From positions 744,001 to 808,000 of the forward strand of contig NZ_CP012401.1 of the NCBI RefSeq assembly GCF_001305595.1: a stretch of DNA of 64,000 nucleotides. Direction: 5' to 3'. Below are positions 3,191 to 21,362 of this stretch, piece by piece. Numbering within the stretch: the stretch's first letter is position 1; every line of letters begins with the position of its first letter. The notes under the pieces were generated by a model. The model saw nothing but the letters and a program-made list of their open reading frames with translations. It searched no databases and was not told the origin of the DNA. The DNA comes from Azospirillum thiophilum. Lineage in GTDB: Bacteria > Pseudomonadota > Alphaproteobacteria > Azospirillales > Azospirillaceae. The position numbers and the translations under genes are program-made.

Positions 3191-3661
3191 ATGGGTAATG
3201 CACGCCCAATCCACGAACGGCTGGAAATGCACAGTGAGGACGACCTCAATACAGGATGCCGGATCTGGAAAGGAAGAGTGGACAAGAACGGCTACCCGGT
3301 GCTGAAGATCAACGGCGAACGTGTATGCGTTCGCCCCGTAGCCTTCGAAGCGGCCTACGGAAACCGTCTCAACTCCAACATGGTCGGGCGACCGCAGATT
3401 CGCATGACCTGCGGGATGAAGACCTGCATCAACCCCGCCCACATGACCGTCCGAACCGACGAGGACCGATTGTTCCTGGAGATCCGGCAGGAGGTCTACC
3501 TGAACGGCCGGACCAGGGCCGAGGCGAACCCCCGCTTTGCATTCATGACGACACCGAAGTTCGTTGACGCCGAGGCACGCCGACAGCTTGAGATCCGGCT
3601 GGCCAGGGAGGCACCGCTCACCCCAGAAGTCCAGGCGATCCTGGATCAGATCCGCCGGTAA
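3191..3661 (+). CDS. HNH-like protein, probably degenerate (156 aa)
   Basis: The start ATG at 3191 follows GAGGACCA; an in-frame ATG at 3098 is possible but lacks a clear ribosome site. Residues 22-75 read CRIWKGRVDKNGYPVLKING, then a stretch ending MTCGMKTCINPAHM. This matches the layout of phage-type HNH_3 nucleases (C-x-W-x-G, GYP, then H-x-C-x-x-x-x-C-x-NP-x-H-hydrophobic), including the CINPAHM end. The first His of the usual LHxCDNPxC motif is not present (RMTCGMKTC), so nuclease activity is doubtful. Such genes are often stand-alone homing-type nucleases in mobile DNA. Confidence 0.55.
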   Translation: MGNARPIHERLEMHSEDDLNTGCRIWKGRVDKNGYPVLKINGERVCVRPVAFEAAYGNRLNSNMVGRPQIRMTCGMKTCINPAHMTVRTDEDRLFLEIRQEVYLNGRTRAEANPRFAFMTTPKFVDAEARRQLEIRLAREAPLTPEVQAILDQIRR

Positions 3662-3870
3662 GGGTGAGGAACGCTGGCGGCCATGCCGGCGAGGCCAACA
3701 GCGGGATCGGTAACGATCCGATCACTCCGGCTGGTTGCCGCAACGAGGTATGACGGCCTCATTTGCCGCCCTGGGCGTGCCGCTGACCATGCCGTTCTGG
3801 AACCACTCGACCGCCAAAAGCCGGTGCTGGACAATGTCACCGGACAGACCTGACCCGGTGCCCGCATGAC

Positions 3871-3887
3871 CCTCCTCGGCTCCACCA
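3871..3887 (+). repeat. Second copy of the tRNA-Ala 3' end (att core), inverted
   Basis: CCTCCTCGGCTCCACCA is identical to the last 17 bases of the tRNA-Ala gene at 21363-21438, but on the opposite strand. It is followed, as in the other copy, by the leader of an integrase gene. The homologous arms run 3871-4432 and about 20817-21379, forming a 0.56-kb inverted repeat. The sequence left of 3871 is not tRNA-like. Confidence 0.9.
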
Positions 3888-3945
3888 TTCCTTCTCAAGA
3901 CATTGATGCGACACAGGAATTCGCCCGAAAGCGGCGGAATTTCCC

Positions 3946-3960
3946 GCGGTGTGACACCGC
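3946..3960. promoter_or_regulatory. 15-base palindrome upstream of int fragment
   Basis: GCGGTGTGACACCGC is a perfect palindrome around one central base. The same 15 bases occur before the intact integrase at 21290-21304. Conservation inside otherwise drifting copies suggests a protein-binding site (operator, or accessory site for integrase or excisionase); inference. Confidence 0.45.
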
Positions 3961-4519
3961 CCTGTCGCACGCGGCGTCGGCCGAATCGCCTCCATCCCCT
4001 TCTAAATCCGCTGTTTCAGCCCGTCCGGGGTGTCGCACATCCCTGTCGCCCAAGCGGCGTTCCATGGGGCTCTGGCTGCGGGGAGCCGTGTGGCAGTTCC
4101 GGACGCGGGTTCCGGCCGACCTACAGGCGGTTCTGGGCCGGACCCACATCAATCGCTCCCTCAGGACCAGCAGCTACCCCGACGCCATCCGGGCGGCCCG
4201 CAGGGTGGCCTTCGAGATCGAGGACATGTTCGATGCGGCCCGCGGGGGCACCGGAAGCGACCCGGCCCACGCCGCGTGCGACAGGGCTTGCCCGTCGCCG
4301 CTGGCCCCCTCGGTGACGGCCAACACCGTCCTGCCCGATCCCACCGGCCCCGCCATCCACATCGACCTGGACCTGCTGGCCAGCCGCATCGCCGAAAAAC
4401 TCCAGGCCACCCAACCAGTCGGCAAAGAGGCGGCTTCCATTCGACCTGCCTGAACGATGTCACACTGTGGCCGTGATGAAGGCCCGCATACCTGAATATC
4501 CGCAGGTGTTCCGAAGAAA

Positions 4520-6911: not shown

Positions 6912-7361
6912 ATGGTCGAAGCCGCCACCCACATCGTCCGGGCCGCCCTTCGGCCCAAGCTTTACCGGGACATCGAGATCCCGAGCGACCGCTCCCTCTA
7001 CGACCTCGCCGAGGCCATCGTCCGGGCCTACGCCTTCGACCTGGACCACGCCTTCGGGTTCTTCCCCAAGCTCACCGGCCACATCTACGACGCCAAGCCC
7101 CGCTATGAACTCTTCGCCGACATGGGCGACGGCGGCGACTCCCTCAGCGTCAAGAAGACGACGGTGGCCCAGGCGTTCCCCAAGGTCGGGAAGGCGATGA
7201 CGTTCCTGTTCGACTACGGCGACGAGTGGCGGTTCCGGGTCGAGGTCCTTGCCCTCGGCGAGCGGGAGCCACGCAAACGCTACCCGAGGGTGGTCGCGTC
7301 GGTCGGCAAGGCCCCGCCCCAGTACCCGGACCCCGACGAGGATTTCGACGAGGAGGACTGA
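6912..7361 (+). CDS. pRiA4b ORF-3-like protein (149 aa)
   Basis: AGGAGG stands upstream of the ATG. The protein shows the pattern of the plasmid pRiA4b ORF-3 family (PF07929): an N-terminal RPKLYRDIEIP strand-loop, DLAEAIVRAYAFDLDHAFGF, then FLFDYGDEWRFRVEVL and YPRVVASVGKAPPQYP. These proteins are common on plasmids and beside IS elements and have no established biochemical role. The acidic tail (DPDEDFDEED) is typical. Probably cotranscribed with the upstream unknown gene. Confidence 0.8.
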   Translation: MVEAATHIVRAALRPKLYRDIEIPSDRSLYDLAEAIVRAYAFDLDHAFGFFPKLTGHIYDAKPRYELFADMGDGGDSLSVKKTTVAQAFPKVGKAMTFLFDYGDEWRFRVEVLALGEREPRKRYPRVVASVGKAPPQYPDPDEDFDEED

Positions 7362-7470
7362 GCCGGCCTCCCTGCCGCAGCCCCGCTTCCGGTCAACACC
7401 GTTGCCTGCCGCACCCGGTCTGATAGAGTGCCGCCGCGTTGCACACTTTTGAAGAGACGTTGGGCTCGCG

Positions 7471-8970
7471 ATGGCCGTTCTGACCCTGGACCAGCTTGAA
7501 TCCCACCTGTGGAAAGCCGCCGATATCCTGCGGGGTTCCATCGATTCGTCGGACTACAAGCACTACATCTTTGGGTTGCTGTTCTACAAGCGGCTCTGCG
7601 ACGTGTGGGAGGAGGAGTACGAGGAGCGGATGGCCAAGTACGGCGATGCGGCTCTGGCTGCCGACCCGGACGAGCACCGCTTCCACATCCCCGAGGGGCG
7701 GTTCTGGAAGGACGTGCGGACGCACACGACCAACATCGGCGAACAACTGAACGCCGCGTTCCACGCCGTTGAAGACGCCAATCACCGCCTGCGGGGCGTC
7801 TTCCAGGATGTGGACTTCAACAACAAGGAACGGTTCCCCGACGCATCTCTTGAAAAGCTGCTCCAGCATTTCGAGAAGTATCCTCTCCGCAACGCCAATG
7901 TGGAGCCGGACGTTCTGGGGCAGGCGTACGAATACCTGATCGAGCGGTTCGCCGACGATTCCGGCAAGAAGGGCGGCGAGTTCTACACGCCGAAGATGGT
8001 GGTGCGGCTGCTGGTGGAATGCCTGCGGCCCGAGGAAGGCACGTCTATCTACGATCCGACCTGCGGATCGGGCGGCATGCTGCTGGAAGCCTTCCATCAT
8101 CTGGAGCGGCAGGGCAAGAACGCCCGCAGCCTGACCCTGTGCGGGCAGGAAAAGAACCTGAACACCTGGGCCATCGCCCAGATGAACCTGTTCCTGCACG
8201 ATATCCAGGACTTCGACATCGCCCGTGGCGACACGCTGCTGGACCCGAAGCATCTGACCGGCGACGGCACCAAGGCGATCCGCACCTTCCACCGCGTGCT
8301 GGCGAACCCGCCCTTCTCCCTGAAAGACTGGGGGCACGAGGTCTGGAGCAAGGGCGACCGGTTCGGCCGCGACCGCTACGGCTGCCCGCCCAAATCCTAC
8401 GGCGACCTCGCCTTCGTGCAGCATATGGTCGCCAGCCTGCGGCAGGACGGCATGCTGGGGGTGGTGCTGCCCCACGGCATCCTGTTCCGCGGCGGGGCCG
8501 AGGGCCGCATCCGCGAGGGCCTGTTGAAGGACGACCTGATCGAGGCGGTGATCTCCCTCGCCCCCAACCTGTTCTACGGGGCCGGGATTCCCGCCTGCAT
8601 CCTGATCGTCCGCAAGTCCAAGCCGAAGGACCGCAAGGGCAAGGTGCTGTTCGTCAACGGGGCCGAGCAGTTCATCGAAGGCAAGGCCCAGAACCACCTG
8701 TCCGACGCCAACGTCGCCACGCTCGCCCAGGCGTATCACGACTATGCCGATGTGGATCGCCTCGCCCGCGTGGTGCCGATGGCGGAGATCGCCGGCAACG
8801 ACCACAACCTCAACATCAGCCGCTATGTCCACCTGACCGAGGAGGAGGAGGACCTGGACGTGGCCGAGGAGGTCCAGAAGCTCCTGGAACTGCGGGAGCA
8901 GCGGGACGCCGCCGAGGCCCGGATGATGGGGTTCCTGCGGGAACTCGGCTACCTGCCGGACGGGGAGTGA
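7471..8970 (+). CDS. hsdM: Type I restriction-modification methyltransferase subunit HsdM
   Basis: This 499-residue protein has the HsdM N-terminal helical domain (residues 1-150) followed by the N6-adenine methylase domain. The AdoMet motif DPTCGSGG is at 195-202 and the catalytic NPPF at 279-282. Family role: together with HsdS it methylates adenine in the bipartite target and forms the core of the HsdR2M2S2 nuclease. It starts the restriction locus, seven bases before the rhuM gene. It is intact, but its specificity partner downstream is split, so DNA methylation from this locus is probably lost unless another HsdS complements. Confidence 0.95.
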   Translation: MAVLTLDQLESHLWKAADILRGSIDSSDYKHYIFGLLFYKRLCDVWEEEYEERMAKYGDAALAADPDEHRFHIPEGRFWKDVRTHTTNIGEQLNAAFHAVEDANHRLRGVFQDVDFNNKERFPDASLEKLLQHFEKYPLRNANVEPDVLGQAYEYLIERFADDSGKKGGEFYTPKMVVRLLVECLRPEEGTSIYDPTCGSGGMLLEAFHHLERQGKNARSLTLCGQEKNLNTWAIAQMNLFLHDIQDFDIARGDTLLDPKHLTGDGTKAIRTFHRVLANPPFSLKDWGHEVWSKGDRFGRDRYGCPPKSYGDLAFVQHMVASLRQDGMLGVVLPHGILFRGGAEGRIREGLLKDDLIEAVISLAPNLFYGAGIPACILIVRKSKPKDRKGKVLFVNGAEQFIEGKAQNHLSDANVATLAQAYHDYADVDRLARVVPMAEIAGNDHNLNISRYVHLTEEEEDLDVAEEVQKLLELREQRDAAEARMMGFLRELGYLPDGE

Positions 8971-8977
8971 GGACACC

Positions 8978-10000
8978 ATGTCGGAAGGCGAAGTCATTCT
9001 TTATCGGACCGACGATGGGTCCGCCCAGTTCCGGCTGACCAAGCTGGACGGCACCGTCTGGATGAATCAGATCGAGATCGCGGAGCTTTACCAGACCTCG
9101 AAACAGGCCATCAGCCACCACATCCGCAACATCCTCGCCGAGGGCGAGGTGGCGGCGGAGGCAACTGTCAAAGATAATTTGACAGTTCAAACCGAGGGGC
9201 GGCGGCAGGTTTCCCGGAGCATCAAGCTATACCGCCTCGACATGATCCTGGCCGTCGGCTACCGCGTCCGGTCACCGCGGGGCGTCCAGTTCCGGCAATG
9301 GGCGACGGCAACGCTGGCCGAGTATCTCGTCAAGGGCTTCGTCATGAACGACGAACGCCTGAAGAATCCCGGCGGCTGGGACTATTTCGACGAACTGCTT
9401 GAACGCATCCGCGACATCCGGGCGTCGGAGAAGCGGTTCTACCAGAAGATCCGCGACCTGTTCGCCCTGTCGCAGGACTACCGCGACGACCATGGGGCGG
9501 CGGCCCTGTTCTTCGCCGAGGTTCAGAACAAGCTGCTGCACGCCGTCACCGGCCACACCGCCGCCGAACTGGTGGTGGACCGGTCCGATCCCGGCAAGCC
9601 CAACATGAACCTGCAAAGCTGGACCGGTGCCCGCGTCCGCAAAGCCGATGTGATCGTGGCCAAGAACTACCTCGCCGCCGGGGAGATCACCGAACTGAAC
9701 CGCATCGTCACCATGTTCCTCGACTACGCCGAGGACCGGGTGAGCCAGCGGAAGCACCTGACCCTGGACGACTGGCGGGCATATGTGGACCGCTTCATCA
9801 CCTTCAACGAACGGCCGCTCCTCAACGGGAACGGGCGGATCAGCCACGACGCCATGAAACGCATCGCCCACGACCGCTACGACGAGTTCGACCGGCAGCG
9901 GAAGCAGCAGGACGCCATCGCCGCCGACGCCGCGGACCTGGAGGAACTGAAGTCCATCGAGGCCCAGGTATCGAAGACCCTAAAGGGGGGCGGGCGATGA
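8978..10000 (+). CDS. rhuM: RhuM family protein
   Basis: The 340-residue product matches the RhuM family (PF13310): N-terminal LYRTDDGSAQFRL...VWMNQIEIAELYQTSKQAISHHI, a helix-turn-helix-like part, then YRLDMILAVGYRVRSPRGVQFRQWA. RhuM proteins are frequently placed between type I restriction genes; the name comes from a Salmonella pathogenicity-island gene, and the molecular function is not settled. It begins seven bases after hsdM and ends four bases inside hsdS (ATGA overlap), so it is translationally coupled in the operon. Confidence 0.9.
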   Translation: MSEGEVILYRTDDGSAQFRLTKLDGTVWMNQIEIAELYQTSKQAISHHIRNILAEGEVAAEATVKDNLTVQTEGRRQVSRSIKLYRLDMILAVGYRVRSPRGVQFRQWATATLAEYLVKGFVMNDERLKNPGGWDYFDELLERIRDIRASEKRFYQKIRDLFALSQDYRDDHGAAALFFAEVQNKLLHAVTGHTAAELVVDRSDPGKPNMNLQSWTGARVRKADVIVAKNYLAAGEITELNRIVTMFLDYAEDRVSQRKHLTLDDWRAYVDRFITFNERPLLNGNGRISHDAMKRIAHDRYDEFDRQRKQQDAIAADAADLEELKSIEAQVSKTLKGGGR

Positions 10001-11021
10001 AGGTGCCGGAGGGGTGGACAGTTCAGCCGCTTGGCGACTTTCTGCAAGAAAGCCGGATTCCGGGGAATGACGGGCGTAGTGCCCGGAAGCTGACAGTTCG
10101 GCTTTATGGGAAAGGTGTGGTGGCCAAAGAGATTGGCGGGCAAGGGAGCGAAAATACAAAGTACTACATTCGAAAGAAGGGTCAGTTCATCTACAGCAAG
10201 TTGGACTTTTTGAATGGTGCTTTCGGAGTTGTTCCTGAAGAGTTGGATGGGTGGGAGACCACGCTTGATCTGCCAGCCTTTGATGTTTCATCTATGATCG
10301 ACAAGCGTTGGCTGCTTGCATACGTGACTCGCGAGCAGTTCTACGCCGCTCACAAAGGACTGGCCCGAGGAGGTCGGAAGGCACGCCGGGTGCCGCCAGA
10401 GGACCTCTTTCAGATCGAGGTGGCTGTTCCGCCCCTACAGGAGCAATGCCGGATCGCCGAGGTGCTTTCCACCGTGGACGAGACGATCAAGACGACGTTG
10501 GCGGTCATTGAGCAAAACCGCACGGTCAAGCAGGGTGTCCTGGACCGCCTACTGACCAAGGGCATTGGACATGACCGCTTTAAGCAGACCGAGTTTGGTT
10601 TGATCCCCGAAGGCTGGGAAGTCGTGCCTCTCAGGACCGTGGCCCACGTCCAGACCGGAGTCGCCAAAGGCAAAAAGGACATCCAGGACCCTGTCGAACT
10701 CCCCTATCTGAGGGTCGCAAATGTCCAGGACGGCCGTATCGACCTTACGGAGTTGAAGACCATCATGGTCTCGGCATCACAGGTCGAACGGTACAGTCTC
10801 CGCTCCGGCGACGTGCTGATGACCGAAGGCGGGGATTTCGACAAGCTTGGCCGAGGCGATGTCTGGAATGGTCAAGTCCCTGTCTGCCTGCACCAAAACC
10901 ATGTTTTTGCGGTTCGCCCAAATCCGGACCTTCTCGTGTCGGAGTTTCTGGCGGCTTTGACTGCATCGGCCCATGGGAAAGGCTACTTCCTGGGTTGTGC
11001 GAAGCAGACCACGAATCTTGC
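9997..11021 (+). pseudogene. hsdS: hsdS, 5' part, split by transposon
   Basis: This is the first 341 codons of a type I specificity subunit. It has a first target-recognition domain starting KVPEGWTVQPLGDFL, the conserved region PPLQEQCRIAEVLSTVDETI, and a second domain starting GLIPEGWEVVPLRTVAHV. The gene is cut at TTNLA by the IS1595-type element; translation past the junction adds only a few residues before a TAG ending at 11034. Joining 11021 to 14743 restores a continuous frame of 413 codons, a normal HsdS length. As it stands the second recognition domain and its helix are incomplete. Confidence 0.95.
11014..11021. repeat. Target site duplication, left copy
   Basis: AATCTTGC directly precedes the left terminus of the transposon and is repeated directly after the right terminus. 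Eight bases is the usual duplication for IS1595-family elements. Confidence 0.95.
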
Positions 11022-11046
11022 CGGTATTCGGTAGCAAACACACCCA
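11022..11046 (+). repeat. Left terminal inverted repeat
   Basis: Begins CGGTATTCGGTAGCAAAC and matches all 25 bases of the right end in reverse complement. The first base after it differs between ends. Confidence 0.95.
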
Positions 11047-11112
11047 CGCTGCTGTATCCGGCAATCCATTGATTTCGTTAAGCTATCGCCCTTGAGTCTC
11101 TGAGAGGAAGCC

Positions 11113-11541
11113 ATGGGCGACACCTACCTGATCTCCGGCTTGACCGCTAAGCGCGCCGAAGTCTCCGGCATCATCGCTGACCTTGAAAAGCGCATCGCCC
11201 AGCACCGGGCCGATCTGGTCCACATCGACGCCGTACTGCGGCTATGCGCCCCGGATGTCGTCCCCGAAGAGATCGCACCCAAGGCCGTCAGGAAGCGCAA
11301 CGACTGGTTCAAGCAGGGCGAGTTGGCCCGCATGGTGCTGGATGTTCTCCGCATCGCACCCGCCCCCATGACCGTCCGAGACATCGCCGTCGAGGTGATG
11401 CAGCGCCGGGGGCTGGAGACCACCGACGCACGCACCGGAAAGCTGGTCACGAAGCTGGTCCATAACGCCGTCACCCGGCAAGCCAACGGGTTGGTAGAGA
11501 AAGTAGCGGATGGGAAGGTGACGGCGTGGAAAGTCTCATGA
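11113..11541 (+). CDS. Transposon passenger, coiled-coil plus winged-helix-like protein (142 aa)
   Basis: GAGAGGAAGCC precedes the ATG. Residues 10-50 (LTAKRAEVSGIIADLEKRIAQHRADLVHIDAVL) form a likely coiled coil; residues 65-142 look like a winged helix (RKRNDWFKQGELARMVLDVL, APAPMTVRDIAVEVM, LVTKLVHNAVTRQANGLVEKV, final strand pair KVTAWKV). The fold resembles HARE-type or similar DNA-binding domains, but I cannot assign a family. It starts 66 bases inside the left end, converging on the ParA gene. A regulatory or accessory role in the element is inference. Confidence 0.65.
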   Translation: MGDTYLISGLTAKRAEVSGIIADLEKRIAQHRADLVHIDAVLRLCAPDVVPEEIAPKAVRKRNDWFKQGELARMVLDVLRIAPAPMTVRDIAVEVMQRRGLETTDARTGKLVTKLVHNAVTRQANGLVEKVADGKVTAWKVS

Positions 11542-11551
11542 AATACTGCTA

Positions 11552-12589
11552 TTAAAGTGTAGCAAGCACCTTGTTGAGATCGCTCACTAGCGGGGTTATC
11601 TGGGTTTCGCTAGCTTGTGTTTGCCTTCCATAGATGTCATATTTTTTAGGAACAAGTTTCGACAACGGCATGCCAACGTGATTGATGATTGCTGCGAGCG
11701 TATTGCCGTCTTTGACATTCAAGACATCGCCGCCGCCATTGGCGGTGAACAGGGTTGGATAGGCGGCCCGCACACGCGCTGCCACGTCTTCGATTTCCCT
11801 TACATGGGATTTAAAGGCTGCCGCAGCATCGGCAAGATTAGACCTCGACTTATTCAGAACAAATCTATGAATGTTTGGTAGAGACAAAGCGGCATCCCTA
11901 GCATTCGAATGGAACGCGAGAAAAATTTCATCATCCATTGTCGCTTTCCCGACGTCAATGCCATAAATAAGCTTAAACAGATTGCGTATCCCTCTGATCG
12001 ATGCGGCGTCCGCCGTGCAAGGCACAATGATCCGATTTGATGCCAGCACAGCTATTTCAGTATAAGTTGCAAAACTTGGGTTGCAGTCGATAAAATACAC
12101 CTGCTTTTTCTGATCTGCTTCCTTCCTCTGCTCAAATGACGTAATTAGGTCGTTGAGCAATAGTCTGCTCTTCTTCCACGCGTTGCGCTCTGGTGCAGTA
12201 GCCATGTAATTTATGATTGCCGAGCAAATATCCAAATCAACATCTCCCGGAAGAAGATAGAGATTTTTTGGCATATTGCCGTTACGCTGGCTCGCGTTTA
12301 CGAAATAATCTATCTCAGTTCCAAGCTTAGATGACTTTGACCGCTCATATCTGTCTTTAATATACCCAGCTATCGTAGTATTGTTCTGCCTCAGCCTCTC
12401 TAGGTTTTCCTCTCCTTTGCCATTTCCTCCGAGTATCATTTCTGATACGTTAGCCTGCGGGCAGGCATCGACAACGATTACTTCTTCATTAGGATTTGCA
12501 AGAGCATATTCAACCGAAAGCATATAAGTAAGGAAGCTCTTCCCAACGCCACCTTTATTATTCCATACCAAATACTTTACGCGATCCAT
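11552..12589 (-). CDS. ParA-type AAA ATPase, transposon passenger
   Basis: The 345-residue protein begins MDRVKYLVWNNKGGVGKSFL, with the deviant Walker A motif KGGVGKS at residues 12-18 and the switch-like VVDACPQANVSEM at about 40-52; YFIDCNPSFATY near residue 160 fits Walker B. This places it in the ParA/MinD/Soj group of dimerising ATPases. No ParB-like gene or centromere-like repeat is seen. Codon use is more AT-rich than neighbours, implying foreign origin. It could partition the element, regulate transposition or act in defence; none is shown. It converges on the gene at 11113 with 10 bases between. Confidence 0.85.
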   Translation of the reverse strand: MDRVKYLVWNNKGGVGKSFLTYMLSVEYALANPNEEVIVVDACPQANVSEMILGGNGKGEENLERLRQNNTTIAGYIKDRYERSKSSKLGTEIDYFVNASQRNGNMPKNLYLLPGDVDLDICSAIINYMATAPERNAWKKSRLLLNDLITSFEQRKEADQKKQVYFIDCNPSFATYTEIAVLASNRIIVPCTADAASIRGIRNLFKLIYGIDVGKATMDDEIFLAFHSNARDAALSLPNIHRFVLNKSRSNLADAAAAFKSHVREIEDVAARVRAAYPTLFTANGGGDVLNVKDGNTLAAIINHVGMPLSKLVPKKYDIYGRQTQASETQITPLVSDLNKVLATL

Positions 12590-12679
12590 TGATCATCTCC
12601 ACTTCCAGCGCAAAAAATAAACCGCACTTGTTGAACATAGGCTGATGCGTGGTGGTATAGCAAGCTCACGGGCACGAGT

Positions 12680-12910
12680 TTATACATCATCCACCCGCAC
12701 CGCTGGGCACCCTATAGCCCTCATGCTGGCGAGGAAGAACCACGTCGGGAAGGCCCCCCGGTTTATCTTCACCGTGATGGAGCCTTCCGTTTCCTCAATG
12801 CCCATCTCGGTCAAACGGCGGGCCAACTCGTCATAGGTCACGTCGTGCCGCTTCAACTCCGCCTTCATGAACCGCTTGGCGCGGCCTGCCCATTCGTCCT
12901 TCGCTTCCAT
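12680..12910 (-). CDS. DUF6471 protein, transposon passenger (76 aa)
   Basis: The small protein reads EWAGRAKRFMKAELKRHDVTY then DELARRLTEMGIEETEGSI and ends with KINRGAFPTWFFLASMRAIG, the layout of DUF6471, a helix-turn-helix-like domain often found beside IS1595-type transposases. GAGAGG precedes the ATG. It is divergent from the transposase with 112 bases between, so a role as repressor of the shared promoter region is likely but untested. An extended -10-like TGTTATATT lies upstream on its strand. Confidence 0.75.
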   Translation of the reverse strand: MEAKDEWAGRAKRFMKAELKRHDVTYDELARRLTEMGIEETEGSITVKINRGAFPTWFFLASMRAIGCPAVRVDDV

Positions 12911-12963
12911 GCTATGTACCTCTCGTTAGCGCATGGAATATAACATATGTGAAAGCTTTCTCG

Positions 12964-12992
12964 TTGACAAGAAAGGGCGATGAAACTAACGT
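12964..12992 (+). promoter_or_regulatory. Predicted promoter for the transposase
   Basis: TTGACA at 12964-12969 and a weak TAACGT at 12987-12992 are 17 bases apart, 30 bases before the transposase start codon. The -35 is perfect and the -10 is poor, consistent with a tightly held gene. Confidence 0.45.
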
Positions 12993-13022
12993 ATCTGTTA
13001 GGAACAACACGGATACGCTACC

Positions 13023-13997
13023 ATGTCGCAACACTTTCTCATGTCCTCCGCCGCTCGCACCGTCAGCATGAAACAGGTTGCGCGCATGACGGACGGGGAA
13101 GCCCGCGCGCTGTTCCGTCAAATCCGCTGGCCCGACACCAAGGGCGCTGCCGTCTGCCCCTACTGCGATTGCCGGAAGTGCTACGAATACACCACCCGGA
13201 ACGTTTTTAAGTGCAAGGCGTGCCGTCGCCAGTTCTCCGAAACGTCCGGCACCCTGTTTGCCTCGCGCAAGCTGCCGATCCGGGATTACCTGATCGGCAT
13301 CATCATCTTCGTCAACGCGGTCAAGGGCATCTCCGCTCTCCAACTCGGCCGCGATCTCGACGTGCAGTACAAGACGGCCTATGTGTTGGCGCATAAGCTC
13401 CGGGAAGCCATGGCGGCGGAAGTCCGCGGCGTGGTGCTGGGTGGCGACGGCGCCGACGTGGAAGTTGACGGCTGCTATGTCGGTGGTCACGTCCGCCCCG
13501 AGAACCGCAAGGAAGACCGGAAGGACCGTCGCCTTGCCGAGAACCAGACGGGCAAGCGTCAGGTAGTTGTCGTGGCCCGTGAGCGTGACGGCCGGACTGT
13601 TACCCAGGTGTTCGGCTCGGAAGACGAAAGCGTCGCCTTCATCAAGGCCCGCGTTGATCGCGCCTCCACCGTCCATGCCGATGAAGCCGCCGGTTGGAAC
13701 AGCCTGCATGCCCGCTTCAACATGAAGCGCATCAACCACCAGGAAGCCTACAGCGCGGATGACGCCTGCACCAACCAAGCGGAGTCCTATTTCGCCCGTC
13801 TGCGTCGTGCGGAAGCCGGGCAGTATCACCGGATCGGCGGCAAGTACCTGAACCGCTATGCTGCCGAAATGGCGTGGCGTGAAGACCAGCGCCGGACCAG
13901 CAACGGCGAACAGTTCCGAACCGTTGGCTTCCGTGCCGCTGCGCTGCCGCCGTCCGTGGATTGGTCCGGCTACTGGCAGCGCGGCCGGGCGGCTTGA
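13023..13997 (+). CDS. tnpA: IS1595-family (ISXO2-like) transposase
   Basis: The 324-residue protein has an N-terminal zinc ribbon (CPYCDCRKCYEY then FKCKACRRQFSETSGTLF, residues about 40-80), and the ISXO2-like DDE domain: GDGADVEVDGCYVGG (first Asp), STVHADEAAGWNSL (second Asp) and TNQAESYFARLRRAE (the E/N region with NQAES). The R-rich middle and length are normal for IS1595. It appears intact, so the element may be active. It is the only transposase in the element. Confidence 0.97.
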   Translation: MSQHFLMSSAARTVSMKQVARMTDGEARALFRQIRWPDTKGAAVCPYCDCRKCYEYTTRNVFKCKACRRQFSETSGTLFASRKLPIRDYLIGIIIFVNAVKGISALQLGRDLDVQYKTAYVLAHKLREAMAAEVRGVVLGGDGADVEVDGCYVGGHVRPENRKEDRKDRRLAENQTGKRQVVVVARERDGRTVTQVFGSEDESVAFIKARVDRASTVHADEAAGWNSLHARFNMKRINHQEAYSADDACTNQAESYFARLRRAEAGQYHRIGGKYLNRYAAEMAWREDQRRTSNGEQFRTVGFRAAALPPSVDWSGYWQRGRAA

Positions 13998-14016
13998 ATG
14001 CGGCCTTCGTCGCCGA

Positions 14017-14268
14017 TTACCAGATTTCGCGCGCCCGGTGGAAGCAAACATCAGGCCCCGCCAATTCCTTCGCGCACCCGTCCGAGTCGCGCCACGCCAC
14101 AGTCAAAACACCGCCATCAACGTCAACTACGAGAGAAGTCGGCCCCCCGCTGTTCAGCCGAACGATGTCCCCAATGCGGTGCGGCGGCTCGTTGTCGCGA
14201 CGAAAGGACTCGGCCGACGCTACAACCACAAGATCTTTTGCCCGGATAGGGCGAGCCTTTGGTGACAT
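14017..14268 (-). CDS. DUF2158 (YodC-like) protein, transposon passenger
   Basis: Chosen start ATG at 14268 has GAGAGGG six bases upstream. The 83-residue product contains RIGDIVRLNSGGPTSLVVDV and VTVAWRDSD-like strands (VLTVAWRDSDGCAKEL), the DUF2158 signature (G-D-x-V-x-L-x-SGGP-x-M/L-x-V). The role is unknown; the family is thought to be a small SH3-like barrel. It is divergent from a second, shorter family member. Confidence 0.75.
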   Translation of the reverse strand: MSPKARPIRAKDLVVVASAESFRRDNEPPHRIGDIVRLNSGGPTSLVVDVDGGVLTVAWRDSDGCAKELAGPDVCFHRAREIW

Positions 14269-14318
14269 TTTATACCCTCTCTGCCATTCTTGGTGCCCCT
14301 CTACCAAAGGAGTCGCCA

Positions 14319-14501
14319 ATGCCAGAAGACATCGTAAAAGGGAAAGTTGTGCGTCTAAAGTCTGGTGGGCCAAATATGACCGTCATAAGCGTCGGTCATG
14401 ACGAAATCCAAGACGAAGTGCTTGCGTATTGCGTCTGGTTCGTTAGCAACGAGGCAAAGTACAACTCTTTTCCTTTGTTTACTCTTGACTTGATGGGGTA
14501 A
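14319..14501 (+). CDS. DUF2158 (YodC-like) protein, second passenger copy
   Basis: The 60-residue protein reads IVKGKVVRLKSGGPNMTVIS, the DUF2158 signature, and ends with YCVWFVSNEAKYNSFPLFTLDLM, where W and the F-rich end fit the family. AAAGGAG lies seven bases before the ATG. Two diverged members of the same family back to back in one transposon is unusual. A terminator follows. Confidence 0.8.
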   Translation: MPEDIVKGKVVRLKSGGPNMTVISVGHDEIQDEVLAYCVWFVSNEAKYNSFPLFTLDLMG

Positions 14502-14578
14502 CTAGCCCCGCTAAGCCGCCGGGCGACCACAGCCTAGCGATTAGCCTCTAGGCTAGCCAAAACCCGTAACGCCGCAGC

Positions 14579-14605
14579 AAAGGGCCGCTGGTGAGGCGGC
14601 CCTTT
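14579..14605 (+). terminator. Rho-independent-type terminator after the DUF2158 gene
   Basis: A perfect 10-base stem (AAAGGGCCGC with GCGGCCCTTT) and a 7-base loop, 77 bases after the stop codon. It would shield the rest of hsdS from element transcripts. Confidence 0.75.
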
Positions 14606-14709
14606 CGCTTTGCGCGCGGATTCCGCCAGTGAACGGTTGATTGAAACTTCCATAGCACGAAATCTCACTTGCGCATTTAAAGATATCTGCATGTATCTAG
14701 TTTTTTGGT

Positions 14710-14734
14710 TGGGTGTGTTTGCTACCGAATACCG
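14710..14734 (-). repeat. Right terminal inverted repeat
   Basis: Ends GCTACCGAATACCG and is the exact reverse complement of the left 25 bases. Confidence 0.95.
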
Positions 14735-14742
14735 AATCTTGC
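14735..14742. repeat. Target site duplication, right copy
   Basis: AATCTTGC, identical to 11014-11021. Confidence 0.95.
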
Positions 14743-14959
14743 TTCAATCAACTCCACGCAGGTCAAAGATTTCCCGGTTCTGTTGCCGGGGAAGGAAGAG
14801 CAGGAAAGGATTGTCCAACAGGTCGCCGCATACTCCCTTGCGGAGCGGTCGGCTTCGGACGCATTGGCCCAACTGGCAAAGACCAAAGCAGCCCTCCTGT
14901 CCGACCTTCTGACCGGCCGGAAGCGGATCTCCGCCGACGCCTTATCCCCCGCATTATAA
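14743..14959 (+). pseudogene. hsdS: hsdS, 3' part, beyond the transposon
   Basis: The segment encodes the last 72 residues of HsdS: INSTQVKDFPVLLPGKEEQE then RIVQQVAAYSLAERSASDAL and a final helix LLSDLLTGRKRI. This is the second conserved helix that pairs with HsdM. It has no start codon of its own in the original gene; an ATG at 14705 inside the transposon end could give an 84-residue fusion, but there is no ribosome site. It ends 24 bases before hsdR. Confidence 0.95.
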
Positions 14960-14983
14960 CGCACGACCACAGGGAGCAGCACC

Positions 14984-17900
14984 GTGGCCCAGGGCATGGA
15001 ATGGCACCTCGCCGAGCAACCCACCATCGCCTGCCTTGAGGCCATGGGCTACCGCTTCGTCCCGCCGGAGGAGCATGCCGGTCTGCGGGACGGCGAGAAT
15101 CAGGTGCTGTTCCGCCCCCACCTCGTCGAGGCCATCCAGCGGATCAACGGCGTCTCCCTGGCCGATGCCCAGGCCGCCTACGCCGACCTCGTGTCGATCA
15201 CCGACAACGAAGCGTGGCTCAAAAAGCTCCGCGGCGACTTCAGTCGGCCGGTGCAGGGGGAGGCGACGCGGCGGACCCTGCGGGTGGTCGATTTCGCCAA
15301 CCCGGCCAACAACCGGCTGACCGTCACCCACCAGTTCCGCGTCAAGGCCGAACGGACCCGGATTCCCGACGTGGTGGTTCACCTGAACGGCATCCCGGTG
15401 GTGGTGATCGAGTGCAAGAGCCCGATCAATTCCAAGGACAAGACCGGCGAGGCGTTCGACCAGATCCGGCAGTATGAGCGGGACATCCCCCGGTTGTTCC
15501 TGTCCAACGTCTTCAACCTCGTCACCGACGGCACCAACTGCCTCTACGGCTCCACCGGCAGCCCGTCGAAGTTCTTCGCGGCGTGGCGGGACCCGTGGCC
15601 CCGCCAGGAGGCCGACTTCACCGACGAATTGTCCAAGGGGCTGTGGTGCCTGCTGGAGCCGTCCCGCTTGCTCGACCTGATCGCCCACTTCGTGGTGTTC
15701 GAGAAGACCGAGGAGGGCATCGTCAAGAAGATGTGCCGCTACCAGCAGTTCCGGGCGGTCAACAAGATCGTCGAGCGGGTGGTGGAGAACCGGCACCGGC
15801 GGGGGCTGGTGTGGCACACCCAGGGGTCGGGCAAGTCGCTGACCATGGCCTTCGCCGCCCTGAAGCTGAAGACCCACCGGACGGTGGAGTCGCCCGAACT
15901 GACCAACCCCAACATCCTGGTGCTGACCGACCGGGTGGATCTGCACACCCAAATCACCACCACCTTCATCGCCTGCGGCCTGCCGAACCCGACCGACATC
16001 GGCAGCATCCGCGATCTGCGGACCCTGATGGACGGCAAGACGGACGGGTTGATGGCCCTTTCGACCATCTTCAAGTTCCAGGGGTCCGAAGAGGCGGTCG
16101 CGAACTCCGCCACCTGGATCGTCATGGTGGACGAGGCCCACCGCACCCAGGAAAAGGACCTCGGGGCCTTCCTGCGGAAGACTCTGCCCGACGCCCGCTT
16201 CTTCGGCTTCACCGGCACGCCGATCAAGAAGGACGACAAGGATACCTACGCCAACTTCGGCGTGGTCGGCGAAGGCTATCTCGACAAGTACGGCATCGAC
16301 GACGCCGTGGCCGACGGGGCGACGGTGCCGATCTACTACACCGGCCGCAAGACCGACTGGCATATCGACGAGGCCAAGATCGACATCCTGTTCGACCAGT
16401 GGTTCGCCGACCTGCCCGACGACAAGCTTGCGGAACTGAAGAAGCGGGGCGTGACGGTCGCCGATCTGGTCAAGCACCCGAGGCGGATCGCCCTGATCGC
16501 CTACGACATCTGGACCCACTTCAAGGAATACGCCCGCCCCGACGGCTTCAAGGCCCAGATCGTCGCCTTCGACCGCGAGGCGGTCATCCTCTACAAGCGG
16601 GCCTTGGATGCGGTCATCGCCGCCGATCTGGCCGCCGAGGGCATGCCCATCGAAGACGCCCAGGCGATGGCGGCGGACATGTCGGCCTGCGTCTACTCGT
16701 CGTCGCAGGAGGACGCGAAGCCGAGCGAGGACGCGTACACCCAGTCGATCCGCGACGGCCTTGTCGCCCACTATCTGGACGACAAGGCCGAGATCGATGT
16801 GAAGAAGGCGTTCGGCAAGAAGGGCGTCCGGCCGGATTTCCTGATCGTCTGCGACAAGCTGCTGACCGGGTTCGACGCCCCCGTCGAGTCCGTCATGTAT
16901 CTCGACAAGCCGCTGAAGGAGCACGGCCTGCTCCAGGCCATCGCCCGTACCAACCGGGTCGCCGACGCCCGCAAACGAAACGGGCTGATCGTCGATTACA
17001 TCGGCGTGTCCGCTCATCTGGACAGGGCTCTCGCCTCCTACCGGGCCGACGATGTCCGCAACGCCATGCGGGATCTGGACGACCTCCGCAACCAGCTTCG
17101 GGCCGCCCACGCCGCCGTGCTCCACATGATGAAGGGGGTGAAGCGGGCCGGCGGGCGACTGGACAAGGACAGCCTGAAGGCCGAGTTCGACCAGCTTGTC
17201 GCCCGGCTGAAACCCGACGAGACCCAGTGGATCGAGTTCCGCAAGGCGGCCCGCGAGTTCATCGGCCTGTACGAGGCCGTCAGCCCGGACCCCTGCGTGC
17301 TGGAGTTCACCGCCGACCTGAAATGGGTGGCCCTGTTCCTCCAGTACGCCACCCAGGCCATCGAGAAGCGGGAGGCGTTCGACCAGCGGTCCTACAGCCG
17401 TAAGATCCGCGACATGCTGGAACGCCACCTCGACGCCACCGGGCTGAGCGTGACGGTGAAGCTCCGCCACATCACCGATCCGGAGTTCTGGGAGGACTTC
17501 AAGGTCGAGGGCAAGACGGAGGACGACCTCAAGACGGCGGCGATCCGCAAGACCACCGAACTCCGCAAGGTCGTCTACGAGCGGCTGGGCCAGAACGCCC
17601 ACCAGTACGGCAAATTCTCCGACCGGCTGCGGGAGTTGCTGGAGAAGTTGGAGGGTGCCCAGCTTTCCTGGGCCGACACGCTGAGTAAGTTGCAGGATCT
17701 CGCCAAGGACCTGGAAGCCGAGGCGACCGCCCATGAGGAGGCCGGGATGTCGCAGGGGGCATATGGCATTCTCCAGGTCCTCCTAGCCTTCCACGCGGGG
17801 GATGGAGCGGATGGGCTGGCGGAGCGGATCGCCGCCCTCTATGAGGATGATGCGACCGCCCCGCGACTGTGGCAGGAGAAGGAGGGGCTGCGGCGGTCGC

Positions 17901-18007
17901 TGCGACAGCAGGTCCGCGGCTTGGCCCACGAATTCGGCCTGGGGAACCTCAAGGAGGTCTCCGAGCAGGTCGAGGAGTTCGCCCTCAAGCAGTTCGCCAA
18001 GGTCTGA
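14984..18007 (+). CDS. hsdR: Type I restriction endonuclease subunit HsdR
   Basis: The GTG start is supported by AGGGAG seven bases upstream. The 1007-residue protein has the N-terminal PD-ExK nuclease (VVVIECKSPIN; E143, K145), then an SF2 translocase with Walker A QGSGKS at 280-285, DEAH at 383-386 and FTGTPI just after, and a second RecA domain ending AIARTNRVADARKR. A long helical C-terminus binds the methylase core. It is intact. Without complete HsdS it cannot be targeted, so restriction is predicted off. It continues the operon into the YgjP-type gene three bases later. Confidence 0.96.
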   Translation: MAQGMEWHLAEQPTIACLEAMGYRFVPPEEHAGLRDGENQVLFRPHLVEAIQRINGVSLADAQAAYADLVSITDNEAWLKKLRGDFSRPVQGEATRRTLRVVDFANPANNRLTVTHQFRVKAERTRIPDVVVHLNGIPVVVIECKSPINSKDKTGEAFDQIRQYERDIPRLFLSNVFNLVTDGTNCLYGSTGSPSKFFAAWRDPWPRQEADFTDELSKGLWCLLEPSRLLDLIAHFVVFEKTEEGIVKKMCRYQQFRAVNKIVERVVENRHRRGLVWHTQGSGKSLTMAFAALKLKTHRTVESPELTNPNILVLTDRVDLHTQITTTFIACGLPNPTDIGSIRDLRTLMDGKTDGLMALSTIFKFQGSEEAVANSATWIVMVDEAHRTQEKDLGAFLRKTLPDARFFGFTGTPIKKDDKDTYANFGVVGEGYLDKYGIDDAVADGATVPIYYTGRKTDWHIDEAKIDILFDQWFADLPDDKLAELKKRGVTVADLVKHPRRIALIAYDIWTHFKEYARPDGFKAQIVAFDREAVILYKRALDAVIAADLAAEGMPIEDAQAMAADMSACVYSSSQEDAKPSEDAYTQSIRDGLVAHYLDDKAEIDVKKAFGKKGVRPDFLIVCDKLLTGFDAPVESVMYLDKPLKEHGLLQAIARTNRVADARKRNGLIVDYIGVSAHLDRALASYRADDVRNAMRDLDDLRNQLRAAHAAVLHMMKGVKRAGGRLDKDSLKAEFDQLVARLKPDETQWIEFRKAAREFIGLYEAVSPDPCVLEFTADLKWVALFLQYATQAIEKREAFDQRSYSRKIRDMLERHLDATGLSVTVKLRHITDPEFWEDFKVEGKTEDDLKTAAIRKTTELRKVVYERLGQNAHQYGKFSDRLRELLEKLEGAQLSWADTLSKLQDLAKDLEAEATAHEEAGMSQGAYGILQVLLAFHAGDGADGLAERIAALYEDDATAPRLWQEKEGLRRSLRQQVRGLAHEFGLGNLKEVSEQVEEFALKQFAKV

Positions 18008-18010
18008 TCC

Positions 18011-18751
18011 ATGCCCATGCTGACGGTCGGCAGCGTCGAGATCCCCTACGTCCTGCGTCGCTCCGACGCGGCGACGCGGGCACGCATCACCGTCACCCCC
18101 GACAGCGTCGAGGTGGTCGTGCCCACCGCCGCCACCGAGGACGAGATTGCCGGGGTGCTCCACCGCCGCAGGGCATGGCTGTACGAGCAGACCCGCCACA
18201 TGGCCGAGCGGATGGCCCGCTCCAATGCCGTCCGGCGGTTCGTCAGCGGGGCCAAGATCCCCTACCGCGGCCGGCTCATGCGGCTGCGGGTCGAGCCCTG
18301 CGACGACACGCTGGTGAGTGTCGCCTACCGCAACGGCTTCCTGGTCGGCTGCCCGCGGTCCGTGGCTCCCGCCTCCCACGACGACCTGATCGAGTCGGCC
18401 TTGCGGCTGTGGCTGAGGAAGCGGCTCCGCCAGGATGTCGCCGACCTCGTCCGCCGACACGGCGAGCCGAACGGGCTGAAGCCCAGAGATGTCCGGGTCA
18501 AGGACCAGAAGCATGTCTGGGGAAGCTGCGGGATCGACCGCGTCGTAAACCTGAACTGGCAGTTGGTCTTCGCCCCCCGGACGGTGCTGGAATACGCGGT
18601 GGTCCATGAACTCTGCCACCTGCGGCACCGCACCCACGACCGGGCCTTCTGGGGGCTGGTCGGAACCATCCTGCCGGACTGGGAGGCCAGGAAGGCATGG
18701 CTGGACCAGAACGAGCATTTCCTGACGCTGCGACGCGTGGAGCCGACCTGA
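18011..18751 (+). CDS. YgjP-type metallopeptidase-like protein
   Basis: The 246-residue protein carries the zincin motif HELCH with a downstream His (HRTHDRAFW) and the preceding VWGSC, typical of the YgjP/DUF45 family (PF01863), predicted Zn-dependent peptidases. Members are regularly placed directly after hsdR in type I loci; the target is unknown. Its stop overlaps the start of the mrr gene (TGATG), so the two are coupled. Confidence 0.88.
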   Translation: MPMLTVGSVEIPYVLRRSDAATRARITVTPDSVEVVVPTAATEDEIAGVLHRRRAWLYEQTRHMAERMARSNAVRRFVSGAKIPYRGRLMRLRVEPCDDTLVSVAYRNGFLVGCPRSVAPASHDDLIESALRLWLRKRLRQDVADLVRRHGEPNGLKPRDVRVKDQKHVWGSCGIDRVVNLNWQLVFAPRTVLEYAVVHELCHLRHRTHDRAFWGLVGTILPDWEARKAWLDQNEHFLTLRRVEPT

Positions 18752-19668
18752 TGGCCATTCCCGATTTCCAGACCTTGATGCTCCCCGTGCTGAAGATCGC
18801 CGCCGGGGGTGGCGAGGTCCGCATCCGCGACGTAGTGGACATTCTTGCGGACGAGTTTGCCCTGACCGACGAGGAGCGGGCTCATCGCGTGCCGTCGAAA
18901 CAACAGACGACCTTTGGCAACCGCGTGAGTTGGGCAAAGAGCTATCTCAGCAAAGCCGGGTTGGTCGAACTGACCCGACGAGCACATTTCCGTATCACCG
19001 AGACCGGCCGACAGGTGCTGAACTCGCCCCCTGACCGGATCACTGTCCGGTTCCTGGAGCAGTTTCCAGCCTTTAAGGAAGCACGTGAAGGCGAGGCCGA
19101 GGCGGTGGCGGCCACCGAGACCGTACTGCCGGTTGCCGACAACCCGCTCACCCCCGATGAGGTGATGCGTCAAGCCCACGCCCGAATCGAGGCGTCGCTG
19201 GCCGACGAAATCCTTCAGCGTGTCCAATCCGGAACGCCCGCGTTCTTCGAGAAGACGGTGGTCCGCCTGCTGATCACCATGGGCTATGGCGGGTCGGTGA
19301 CGGAACTGGACAAGGCTTTGGTCGGGAAGTCCGGCGACGACGGCGTGGACGGTGTCATCGACCAGGACCCGCTCGGGTTGGACCGGGTCTATGTCCAGGC
19401 CAAGCGGTACGCCGACGGCAACACCGTCGGGGCAGGGGCGATCCGCGACTTCTTCGGCAGCCTGAACCTGTTCAAGGCGACCAAGGGACTATTCGTTACC
19501 ACCTCCGCCTTCACCACGTCGGCCAGGGAGACGGCCGACCGGCTCGGCACCCGCATCGTGTTGATCGATGGAATCCAACTGGCCAAGCTCATGATCCGGC
19601 ACGAGGTCGGATGCAGGATCGAGGAGACCCTGCACATCAAGAGAGTGGACGAGGACTTCTTCGAATAA
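18751..19668 (+). CDS. mrr: Mrr-like restriction endonuclease
   Basis: The 305-residue protein has an N-terminal winged-helix Mrr_N domain (residues about 1-90, with RVSWAKSYLSKAGLVE) and a C-terminal Mrr catalytic domain: FEKTVVRLLITMGYGG, GDDGVDGVI (Asp) and VYVQAKRY (the Q-x-K form of PD-(D/E)-x-K). Mrr enzymes cut modified DNA. Beside a type I system it suggests a two-sided defence island. The ATG overlaps the previous stop. It looks intact and may be the only active nuclease of the locus. Confidence 0.92.
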   Translation: MAIPDFQTLMLPVLKIAAGGGEVRIRDVVDILADEFALTDEERAHRVPSKQQTTFGNRVSWAKSYLSKAGLVELTRRAHFRITETGRQVLNSPPDRITVRFLEQFPAFKEAREGEAEAVAATETVLPVADNPLTPDEVMRQAHARIEASLADEILQRVQSGTPAFFEKTVVRLLITMGYGGSVTELDKALVGKSGDDGVDGVIDQDPLGLDRVYVQAKRYADGNTVGAGAIRDFFGSLNLFKATKGLFVTTSAFTTSARETADRLGTRIVLIDGIQLAKLMIRHEVGCRIEETLHIKRVDEDFFE

Positions 19669-19677
19669 CAGCCGGGC

Positions 19678-21285
19678 CTACGCCGGGAACGGGGCGAGCA
19701 TCAGGTGGACAAGGTCCAGTTCCGGGTAGCGGACTTTGGAGATGGCCTCCAGAAGGGTAGATGCCCGGAACCCCCGACCGTAGAACTCGGCACTTTCCGA
19801 GCCCATGTCGCCGTTGTCGCCGGCCCAACCGCCAAGGGCCAGGGCAAGCTCACGGTCGACCCGAGCCTCCCGGAGAGCATCCCGGAAGTTGTGTCGGAAG
19901 CTATGGAAGCAAGTCCGGCCAGCCGACGCCCCCGCCTTCTGGAGGAACCGCCGGAACCACTTCGAGAATACATCGGAGTAATATCCGGTTTTTGCCGGAA
20001 GTAGTTCCGGAAACAGTTTGGCGTTCCTCTTCCGCCGCTGCTCGCTGACGTACTCATCGAATCCCGCCGCAAGCAGCGTGGGGTGGACCGGGATAACCCG
20101 CTCGCTGCTGCCGGTCTTGAGCCGCTTGTCGTCGGTTCCCTTGATCGCCTCAGCCGTGACCACGAAGCACAGGGTGCCGTCGATCACCCGGACATCCTCG
20201 GTGTTCATCTGGCAGATCTCGTTGAGCCGCATGCCCGAAAACAAGCCGATCAGCGGCACCCAGAAGCGTCCCCGCCGGGGACGGGCGTCTCCCGGCTTGG
20301 CGTAGCCGTGGTCGTCGTCCTGGCAACCGGTGTAGAGCGGGGCGGTGAAGATGGCTTGAAGCTGCTTTGGGGTGAATGGCTGCCGCTTGTCCTTGCGATT
20401 GGTGGTGTCCACGACGCCAAGCCCCTTCGCTGGATTCCGGTCGATGAACCCCTCGTTGACCGCCCAGGTCAGGAGGGCGGACAGCTTTGTCATGTAACCG
20501 TTCACGGTCGCGGGGCTGAGGCCGGACGCCTTGCCGGCGTCGCGGGTTTTCTGGGCGATCTCACGTGCGGTCAGGTCGGGGTACCGCTTGGTCGAGTTGG
20601 GCGGCAGCCACCGGAGGGTGTCCATGACCTCGCGGCAGGTCTCCCGGCCGATGTCGGACACCGGCGTGTCCTGGCCGATGATCTCGATCAGCAGCCCGAA
20701 AACCGTCTCGTAGGCCAGGATGGTCTTGCCGGATCGGATAACGCCGGGATCGGCCATGTAGGCGTCGTAGACCTGCTGGATGGTCTTCGCCTTGGCGGGG
20801 GCGACGGTAGGCACAACCGCCTCCGCGGCGACTGGTTGGGCGGCCTGGAGTTTTTCGGCGATGCGGCTGGCCAGCAGGTCCAGGTCGATCTGGATGGCGG
20901 GGCCGGTGGGCTCGGGCAGGACGGTGTTGGCCGACACCGAGGGGGCGGGGGGCAATAGGCAAGGCCTGTCGCACACGGCGTGGGCCGGGTCGCTTCCGAT
21001 GCCCCCACGGGCCGCCTCGAACAGTTCCTCGATCTGGAAGGCCACCCGGCGGGCCGCCCGGATGGCGTCGGGGTAGCTGCTGGTCCTAAGGGAGCGATTG
21101 ATGTGGGTCCGGCCCAGAACCGCCTGGAGGTCGGCCGGAACCCGCGTCCGGAACTGCCAGACGGCTCCCCGGATCCACAGCCCTGTGGGACGCCGCTTGG
21201 GCGACAGGAATGTGCGACACCCCGGATGGGCTGAAACGGCGGATTTTGAAGGCGATGAAGACGATTCGGCCGACGCCGCGTGCAA
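19678..21285 (-). CDS. int: Tyrosine site-specific integrase of the island
   Basis: The 535-codon frame has an N-terminal DUF6538-like part (WIRGAVWQFRTRVPADLQAV), a core-binding domain near residues 200-280, and the catalytic domain with Arg in LFSGMRLNEICQ, the H-x-x-R box HSFRHNFRDA and Tyr in AEFYGRGF. It seems complete and sits beside tRNA-Ala, the expected attachment site. The start is uncertain: only a TTG is available at 21285, and the frame stays open back into the tRNA T-arm. It converges on mrr with nine bases between. Confidence 0.92.
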   Translation of the reverse strand: MHAASAESSSSPSKSAVSAHPGCRTFLSPKRRPTGLWIRGAVWQFRTRVPADLQAVLGRTHINRSLRTSSYPDAIRAARRVAFQIEELFEAARGGIGSDPAHAVCDRPCLLPPAPSVSANTVLPEPTGPAIQIDLDLLASRIAEKLQAAQPVAAEAVVPTVAPAKAKTIQQVYDAYMADPGVIRSGKTILAYETVFGLLIEIIGQDTPVSDIGRETCREVMDTLRWLPPNSTKRYPDLTAREIAQKTRDAGKASGLSPATVNGYMTKLSALLTWAVNEGFIDRNPAKGLGVVDTTNRKDKRQPFTPKQLQAIFTAPLYTGCQDDDHGYAKPGDARPRRGRFWVPLIGLFSGMRLNEICQMNTEDVRVIDGTLCFVVTAEAIKGTDDKRLKTGSSERVIPVHPTLLAAGFDEYVSEQRRKRNAKLFPELLPAKTGYYSDVFSKWFRRFLQKAGASAGRTCFHSFRHNFRDALREARVDRELALALGGWAGDNGDMGSESAEFYGRGFRASTLLEAISKVRYPELDLVHLMLAPFPA

Positions 21286-21289
21286 CAGG

Positions 21290-21304
21290 GCGGTGTCACA
21301 CCGC
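21290..21304. promoter_or_regulatory. 15-base palindrome upstream of int
   Basis: Same perfect palindrome as at 3946-3960 (GCGGTGTCACACCGC on this strand), just upstream of the likely integrase start region. Candidate operator or accessory recombination site. Confidence 0.45.
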
Positions 21305-21362
21305 GGGGAATTCCGCCGCTTCCGGGCGAATTCCTGTGTTGCATCAATGTCTTGGGGGTGAT

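Follow-up and report, generated by a model that had tools for sequence, protein, structure and literature searches.

A window of 64,000 nucleotides from Azospirillum thiophilum (contig NZ_CP012401.1, positions 744,001 to 808,000) was analysed, and within it the specificity gene hsdS of a type I restriction-modification (R-M) system is interrupted by a complete insertion sequence (IS) of the IS1595 family, ISXO2 group. The most probable reading, which we hold with good confidence, is an ordinary recent insertion by an IS1595 lineage that swaps its cargo, disabling one defence system and bringing in a candidate accessory gene. A transporter IS (tIS) inserted recently near the 3' end of hsdS in the hsdM-rhuM-hsdS-hsdR operon, HsdS ends after about 341 of 413 residues with loss of its second conserved helix, transcription into hsdR may be cut as well, and restriction together with normal methylation would most likely be lost. 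The lineage retains three backbone genes (o142, DUF6471 and the transposase) and exchanges its cargo between copies, the cargo here being a prophage-type ParA-like gene.

The insertion in hsdS

The element proper occupies positions 11022-14734 (3713 bp); the span of 11014..14742 given in a preliminary description of this DNA contains it together with both target duplications. Its ends are a perfect pair of 25-bp terminal inverted repeats (left, 11022..11046, plus strand; right, 14710..14734, minus strand), flanked by identical 8-bp target site duplications (TSDs, AATCTTGC) at 11014..11021 and 14735..14742. With up to two mismatches, the left repeat had matches in 9 of 45 genomes of the genus, including that of the strain itself. 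The transposase gene (13023..13997, plus strand) encodes 324 amino acids (aa) and matched the Pfam families DDE_Tnp_IS1595 (PF12762, 1e-40, positions 5-153 of 153) and Zn_ribbon_IS1595 (PF12760, 2e-12, positions 2-46 of 46) and the NCBIfam model transpos_IS1595 (NF033547, 137.9 bits against a cut-off of 75), and its domain content indicates a full-length protein. The zinc ribbon and DDE transposase, the terminal inverted repeats and the 8-bp duplication are those of an ISXO2-like member of the IS1595 family, in agreement with the preliminary description, which had called the insertion complete and recent. Chance is ruled out because a perfect 25-bp pair and matching 8-mers recur in a second copy in the same genome (el2, see below) and in relatives. 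An assembly artefact was also considered and is unlikely, the element having its own TSD and differing from el2 by about 10-12% in the shared parts.

Both hsdM (7471..8970, plus strand, 499 aa) and hsdR (14984..18007, plus strand, 1007 aa) are complete by domain content, as had been claimed, and a RhuM-family gene (8978..10000, plus strand, 3.3e-110; PADLOC family PDC-S05) lies between hsdM and hsdS. The 5' part of hsdS (9997..11021, plus strand) encodes the first target recognition domain (TRD1), the first conserved region and nearly all of TRD2, and its frame stops inside the element at 11034; the 3' part beyond the element (14743..14959, plus strand) encodes the second conserved region. HsdS as it stands thus has 345 residues, of which the first 341 are native, and has lost the second conserved region. 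With hsdM, a two-TRD hsdS and hsdR in one locus, this is a type I R-M system with an interrupted hsdS. Since the genes are on one strand and tightly spaced (7 bp between hsdM and rhuM, a 4-bp overlap of rhuM and hsdS, and 24 bp from the stop of the joined hsdS to hsdR), they probably form one operon. When position 11021 is joined to 14743, 413 codons are read before a stop, so the joined frame proposed earlier was reproduced by computing the flanks.

The same junction was sought in other genomes. With the interrupted HsdS as query, matches were obtained in 29 of 100 genomes, including the strain's own, and three Azospirillum matches (G010, G017 and G036), 65-77% identical in the aligned part, were examined. 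The junction was uninterrupted in all three (93.8% identity over 80 nucleotides in G010, 94.9% over 79 in G017 and 81% over 79 in G036), and a single AATCTTGC was present at the empty site of two of them, G010 and G017. The search of sister genomes for the uninterrupted gene therefore confirms that the empty site and the joined frame are real, and we infer that the element arrived after the strain's lineage had separated from these species. The hsdS gene is complete in G017 and G036, while that of G010 has a stop codon in TRD2.

Differences in the rest of the locus were also observed in these relatives. The R-M locus of G010 is decaying, since within 17 kb only hsdM residues 1-29 and hsdR residues 855-1007 were matched. 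G017 is collinear with the window over the island and the right flank, its DNA being 84.9-93.6% identical except for an unaligned TRD1 segment, and in HsdS only 24% identity was found in TRD1 against 90% in TRD2 and the tail. TRD1 (window 9997-10440) has thus been replaced between relatives while the rest of the island is much closer, as expected of hsdS domain shuffling.

Predicted fate of the restriction system

Loss of restriction and normal methylation is the likely result of the insertion. The preliminary description had predicted a silent locus; this is still likely but is weakened by reports that a truncated HsdS can be active with palindromic specificity (PMC3874165). That source describes active homodimers of palindromic specificity for three type IC enzymes: EcoR124I shortened by about 160 residues at its C-terminus, EcoDXXI carrying Tn5 in the C-terminal TRD, and the natural NgoAV. 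By analogy, the truncated HsdS of the window might dimerise via its TRD1 and first helix and methylate a palindrome of the TRD1 half-site, with restriction perhaps absent where hsdR is silenced. We regard this as unlikely, although several observations count in its favour and against a simple loss of function. Besides the transposon-truncated EcoDXXI, the EcoR124I delta-50 and NgoAV enzymes serve as precedents (PMC3874165); among the classical solved enzymes the HsdM is nearer to EcoR124II (type IC, 2.1e-64) than to EcoKI (3.3e-24); and the D1 and D2 helices of HsdS resemble each other with a score of 39, against a mean of 21.8 (standard deviation 4.2) for shuffled sequences, the best of 500 shuffles also reaching 39. 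The nearness to EcoR124II and the likeness of the helices make a homodimer conceivable. TRD1 and D1 are retained and D2 is lost, as a homodimer would have it, yet nearly all of TRD2 is retained without its helix, unlike in EcoR124I delta-50, which may block dimerisation or destabilise the protein. In addition, the best solved match of the HsdM is not EcoR124II but the chains of 7vru (2.1e-159).

The element also places 3.7 kb ahead of hsdR and may thereby cut transcription into this gene. A GC-rich hairpin near its right end (14579..14605, plus strand) is a possible terminator with a weak U tract. Also weighing against a loss of hsdR expression, the fold of this hairpin is not significant (81 nucleotides, -36.3 kcal/mol, z -1.6, 14 of 200 shuffles as good), and a consensus terminator scan did not report it. 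A putative TTG-started frame of 84 aa (14705-14959) runs from the right end of the element into the hsdS tail and matches the C-termini of specificity subunits, which would correspond to a split-protein reading.

According to the preliminary description, a second complete hsdS in the genome could keep the system active. Such a gene is formally present, in a second type I system at 564.8-573.2 kb of contig C1 (L032 6773-15241), about 185 kb from the window hsdS. This system comprises hsdM, a DUF4357 gene with a sub-threshold GIY-YIG match, a complete hsdS of 458 aa (about 567.6-568.9 kb), a Fic gene and hsdR. The second HsdS is complete and similar in TRD2 (53.8% identity), so that it might be thought to serve the window HsdM and HsdR. 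It is adjoined by its own hsdM and hsdR, and the two systems are distant: HsdM is 30% identical over 426 aa, HsdR 23%, and HsdS 23.1% in TRD1 and 30-35% in the conserved regions. Complementation between type I families is not generally expected, and rescue is extremely unlikely because the second HsdM is only 30% identical to that of the window. The shared TRD2 type matters for the interpretation of a methylome, in which the motif of the second system must be distinguished.

It had further been suggested that the locus could return by exact excision as an on/off switch. Beyond the duplication itself this was not supported, and we consider it very unlikely that the element excises precisely at a useful rate and restores hsdS. 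The TSD is perfect and the joined frame exists; the IS1595-family element ISApl4 is described as forming circles (PMC12561309), and reversion has been reported for IS256, IS5, IS1301 and a Pseudomonas atlantica element (PMC11178275, PMC5493358). However, any simple DDE insertion with intact duplications is removable on paper, and circle formation is no proof of donor-site repair. For IS256, which also has an 8-bp TSD, precise loss is reported to be infrequent and not to depend on transposition (PMC11178275). Reversible IS insertions are known at single hotspots (PMC5493358), whereas the TSDs of this lineage show varied insertion sites and no single hotspot, and the strain is represented by one genome, in the interrupted state.

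Silent hsdS cassettes or inverted repeats for shuffling, by which phase-variable type I systems are recognised, were not found: the genome holds only the window hsdS and that of the second system, and within 7000-19700 the only inverted repeats are the element ends and two weak pairs (73-78%). Nothing ties the resolvase (1148-1714) or the tyrosine integrase (19678-21285) of the window to hsdS, and the literature found in a search for similar reports gave no support for a dedicated switch. No sign of one was thus seen at the locus or among the hsdS sequences of the genome. Under the preferred reading of an ordinary insertion, hsdS would be restored only through a precise excision between the 8-bp duplications, probably a rare event, or if recombination replaced the interrupted copy.

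Further features surround the R-M region. Two inverted copies (3868-4433 and 20817-21382, 91% identical), each containing an integrase start and a tRNA 3' end, flank it. The tRNA-Ala gene is at 21363-21438; one of the flanking integrases is a fragment and the other is the long tyrosine integrase, and a similar layout was observed in G017. The resolvase upstream is a serine recombinase (Pfam Resolvase, 3.4e-38). Downstream of hsdR, YgjP-like metallopeptidase and Mrr-type restriction genes (18011-19668) were called with overlapping frames.

A lineage with a fixed backbone and changing cargo

The preliminary description, correct in calling a complete IS1595 insertion, missed the tIS character of the element with its conserved backbone and variable cargo. 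The backbone consists of the transposase, o142 (11113..11541, plus strand, 142 aa, with a weak HARE-HTH resemblance below the Pfam cut-off) and a DUF6471 gene (12680..12910, minus strand, 76 aa, PF20075 3.6e-26) divergent to the transposase. The cargo is a ParA-like ATPase gene (11552..12589, minus strand, 345 aa, AAA_31 3.7e-17; PHROG 164).

Scanning the genome collection yielded 31 relatives, of which 29 belong to Alphaproteobacteria, and across this class the backbone recurs with differing cargo. The second complete copy in the same genome, el2 (C2:472675-478228, L009), has the same ends and a TSD of GTTTGTCG. Its left 510 bp and its transposase block match those of the window element (88-90% identity), and as cargo it carries a DUF3800 gene, an IS3-type insert and a P63C gene. 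A remnant is present on contig C4. In the A. soli element (TSD GGTGTCCC) and the A. picis element, for which no TSD was found, the left part and the transposase are common and the remainder differs. o142 recurs in el2 and in the A. soli and A. picis elements, and several further relatives have a homologue of 30-39% identity; tblastn did not find one in every relative. The DUF6471 gene was identified with Pfam in the window element and by inspection in several relatives. The boundary analysis took 27 of the 31 loci (L088-L091 were left out) with the best four candidates per locus, and exact 8-bp duplications beside ends starting with CGG or CGA were found in 12 of the 27. In Azospirillum sp. 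G027, a 1048-bp element with matching ends and a TSD of GACAAGCG (L052 1514-2561) carries no transposase and is a possible non-autonomous form.

These elements qualify as tIS, since related copies differ in passenger genes that have no part in transposition. Since passenger genes are known in the IS1595 family (PMC8496243, PMC3129680), the lineage is a variation on known tIS. Separately, seven IS1595 relatives of 1.67 kb with an o142-like gene (for example L011, about 1970-3632), 99.9-100% identical to each other, were observed in the same genome; five have identical 8-bp TSDs, one has a TSD differing at one base and one has none. These near-identical copies indicate that IS1595 elements have spread in this genome.

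The cargo of the lineage was compared with PADLOC families, and that of some relatives matched families of candidate phage defence. At E<=1e-10, 8 of 41 cargo open reading frames (ORFs) matched, against 0 of 55 flanking ORFs (Fisher p 0.0007), and when limited to the same 16 loci, 4 of 29 cargo ORFs matched (p 0.012); at E<=1e-3 the number was 9 of 41. The flanking ORFs (165-420 aa) came from 15 of the 16 loci, none qualifying in L076; their best PADLOC match was 3.9e-10, and 14 families were matched at E<=1e-3, each in one member. The eight matching cargo ORFs include two gene pairs and so come from 6 of 21 elements. The ten ORFs scanned first were picked by eye; in the end, 19 elements contributed 36 of their 37 called cargo ORFs with a length of 165 aa or more (the IS3 part of el2, 195 aa, was omitted), and two partial elements added a further five. 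ORF calling relied on length instead of a gene finder, and the 41 include two transposases. Eight loci with unsettled ends were omitted (L065, L068, L069, L081, L083, L084, L085 and L087), the contigs of L063 and L064 are identical with those of L060 and L053 (the two partial elements), and the ends of L066, L073, L080 and L082 were placed by inverted repeats without an exact TSD among the candidates listed.

The matches were PD-Lambda-2_C (1.9e-39) and cll (9.5e-25) in A. picis, PDC-M04A (3.8e-93) and PDC-M04B (4.5e-47) in A. isscasi, Fic-like cargo in L070 and L076, a capP-like protein in L078 and a KilA-N gene in L080, the Fic, KilA-N and peptidase matches not being specific to defence. The remaining 33 of 41 cargo ORFs, including the window ParA and both cargo genes of el2, had no PADLOC match at E<=1e-10. 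Ten proteins were compared with PHROGs, with no control run, and a phage family was matched by 7 of the 8 cargo proteins and by neither of the 2 backbone proteins. Among 20 proteins compared with Pfam, nine were over the cut-off; one was the DUF6471 backbone protein of the window, and the cargo families were SocA/Panacea (twice), Fic, KilA-N, SDH-type protease, P63C, DUF3800 and Beta_protein.

For the ParA-like cargo of the window, 0 PADLOC families were matched, and it does not belong to a known defence family by this measure. Its nearest relatives found are 58-59% identical over the full length, in Pantoea, Klebsiella and E. coli records and one Klebsiella phage, and the enterobacterial relatives sit in phage-like stretches; the homologue is present in 71 of 5426 E. 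coli genomes. In six of eight contexts, the homologue adjoins, or follows with one small ORF in between, a gene annotated for a CI repressor, S24 peptidase or helix-turn-helix (HTH)/XRE regulator on the same strand with phage genes around; these six comprise three contexts with one and the same E. coli protein, two similar ones from Klebsiella, and Pseudomonas phage phi297 (40% identical). This layout was not seen in the Pantoea and Proteus contexts. The position just after the repressor is that described for rexAB and bstA (PMC8585504), and our hypothesis is that the ParA-like gene may have a defence role; the plain alternative is that it acts in partition, as its phage annotation names it.

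A wider reading, which we offer tentatively and consider rather unlikely, is that the lineage is a small shuttle of phage-derived defence genes in Alphaproteobacteria, with a three-gene chassis and one or two slots refilled from morons, and that here type I restriction was swapped for a ParA-type gene of prophage exclusion that has so far not been recognised as a defence system. Should the cargo genes prove protective against phages, single-gene defences would be travelling on a simple DDE insertion sequence, and the search for novel defence genes could turn to its cargo slots, first of all to the ParA-like gene found at the rexAB position of some prophages. The insertion itself, taken as the ordinary event preferred here, explains why one methylation motif may be missing from this soil bacterium. 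Of more use, and deserving of follow-up, is the IS1595 lineage with its changing cargo.

Comparison with known systems

The interruption resembles the insertion of Tn5 in the hsdS of EcoDXXI (Meister 1993, as cited in PMC3874165), in which a transposon also truncates HsdS in its C-terminal half. There, an active enzyme of new specificity is described, whereas here the cut falls after nearly all of TRD2 and activity is predicted to be lost. The IS256 phase variation of Staphylococcus epidermidis, as described in PMC11178275, likewise involves a gene inactivated by an IS with an 8-bp TSD; reversion was observed there, while here only the interrupted state is seen in one genome.

In most of the contexts examined, homologues of the ParA-like gene share the position after the repressor with the prophage abortive-infection genes BstA and RexAB (PMC8585504). 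The ParA-like gene differs from them in protein family, its defence role is hypothetical, and the window copy rides on an IS instead of a prophage.

With the tIS of the IS1595 family as described in PMC3129680 and PMC8496243, the element shares the transposase, the inverted repeats, the 8-bp TSD and passengers unrelated to transposition. No description of the backbone trio with two-slot cargo was found in a literature search that did not cover the 2009 tIS paper (Siguier, Gagnevin, Chandler). The lineage differs from the described tIS in its fixed trio of backbone genes, its two cargo slots, and a cargo that resembles phage moron and candidate defence genes.

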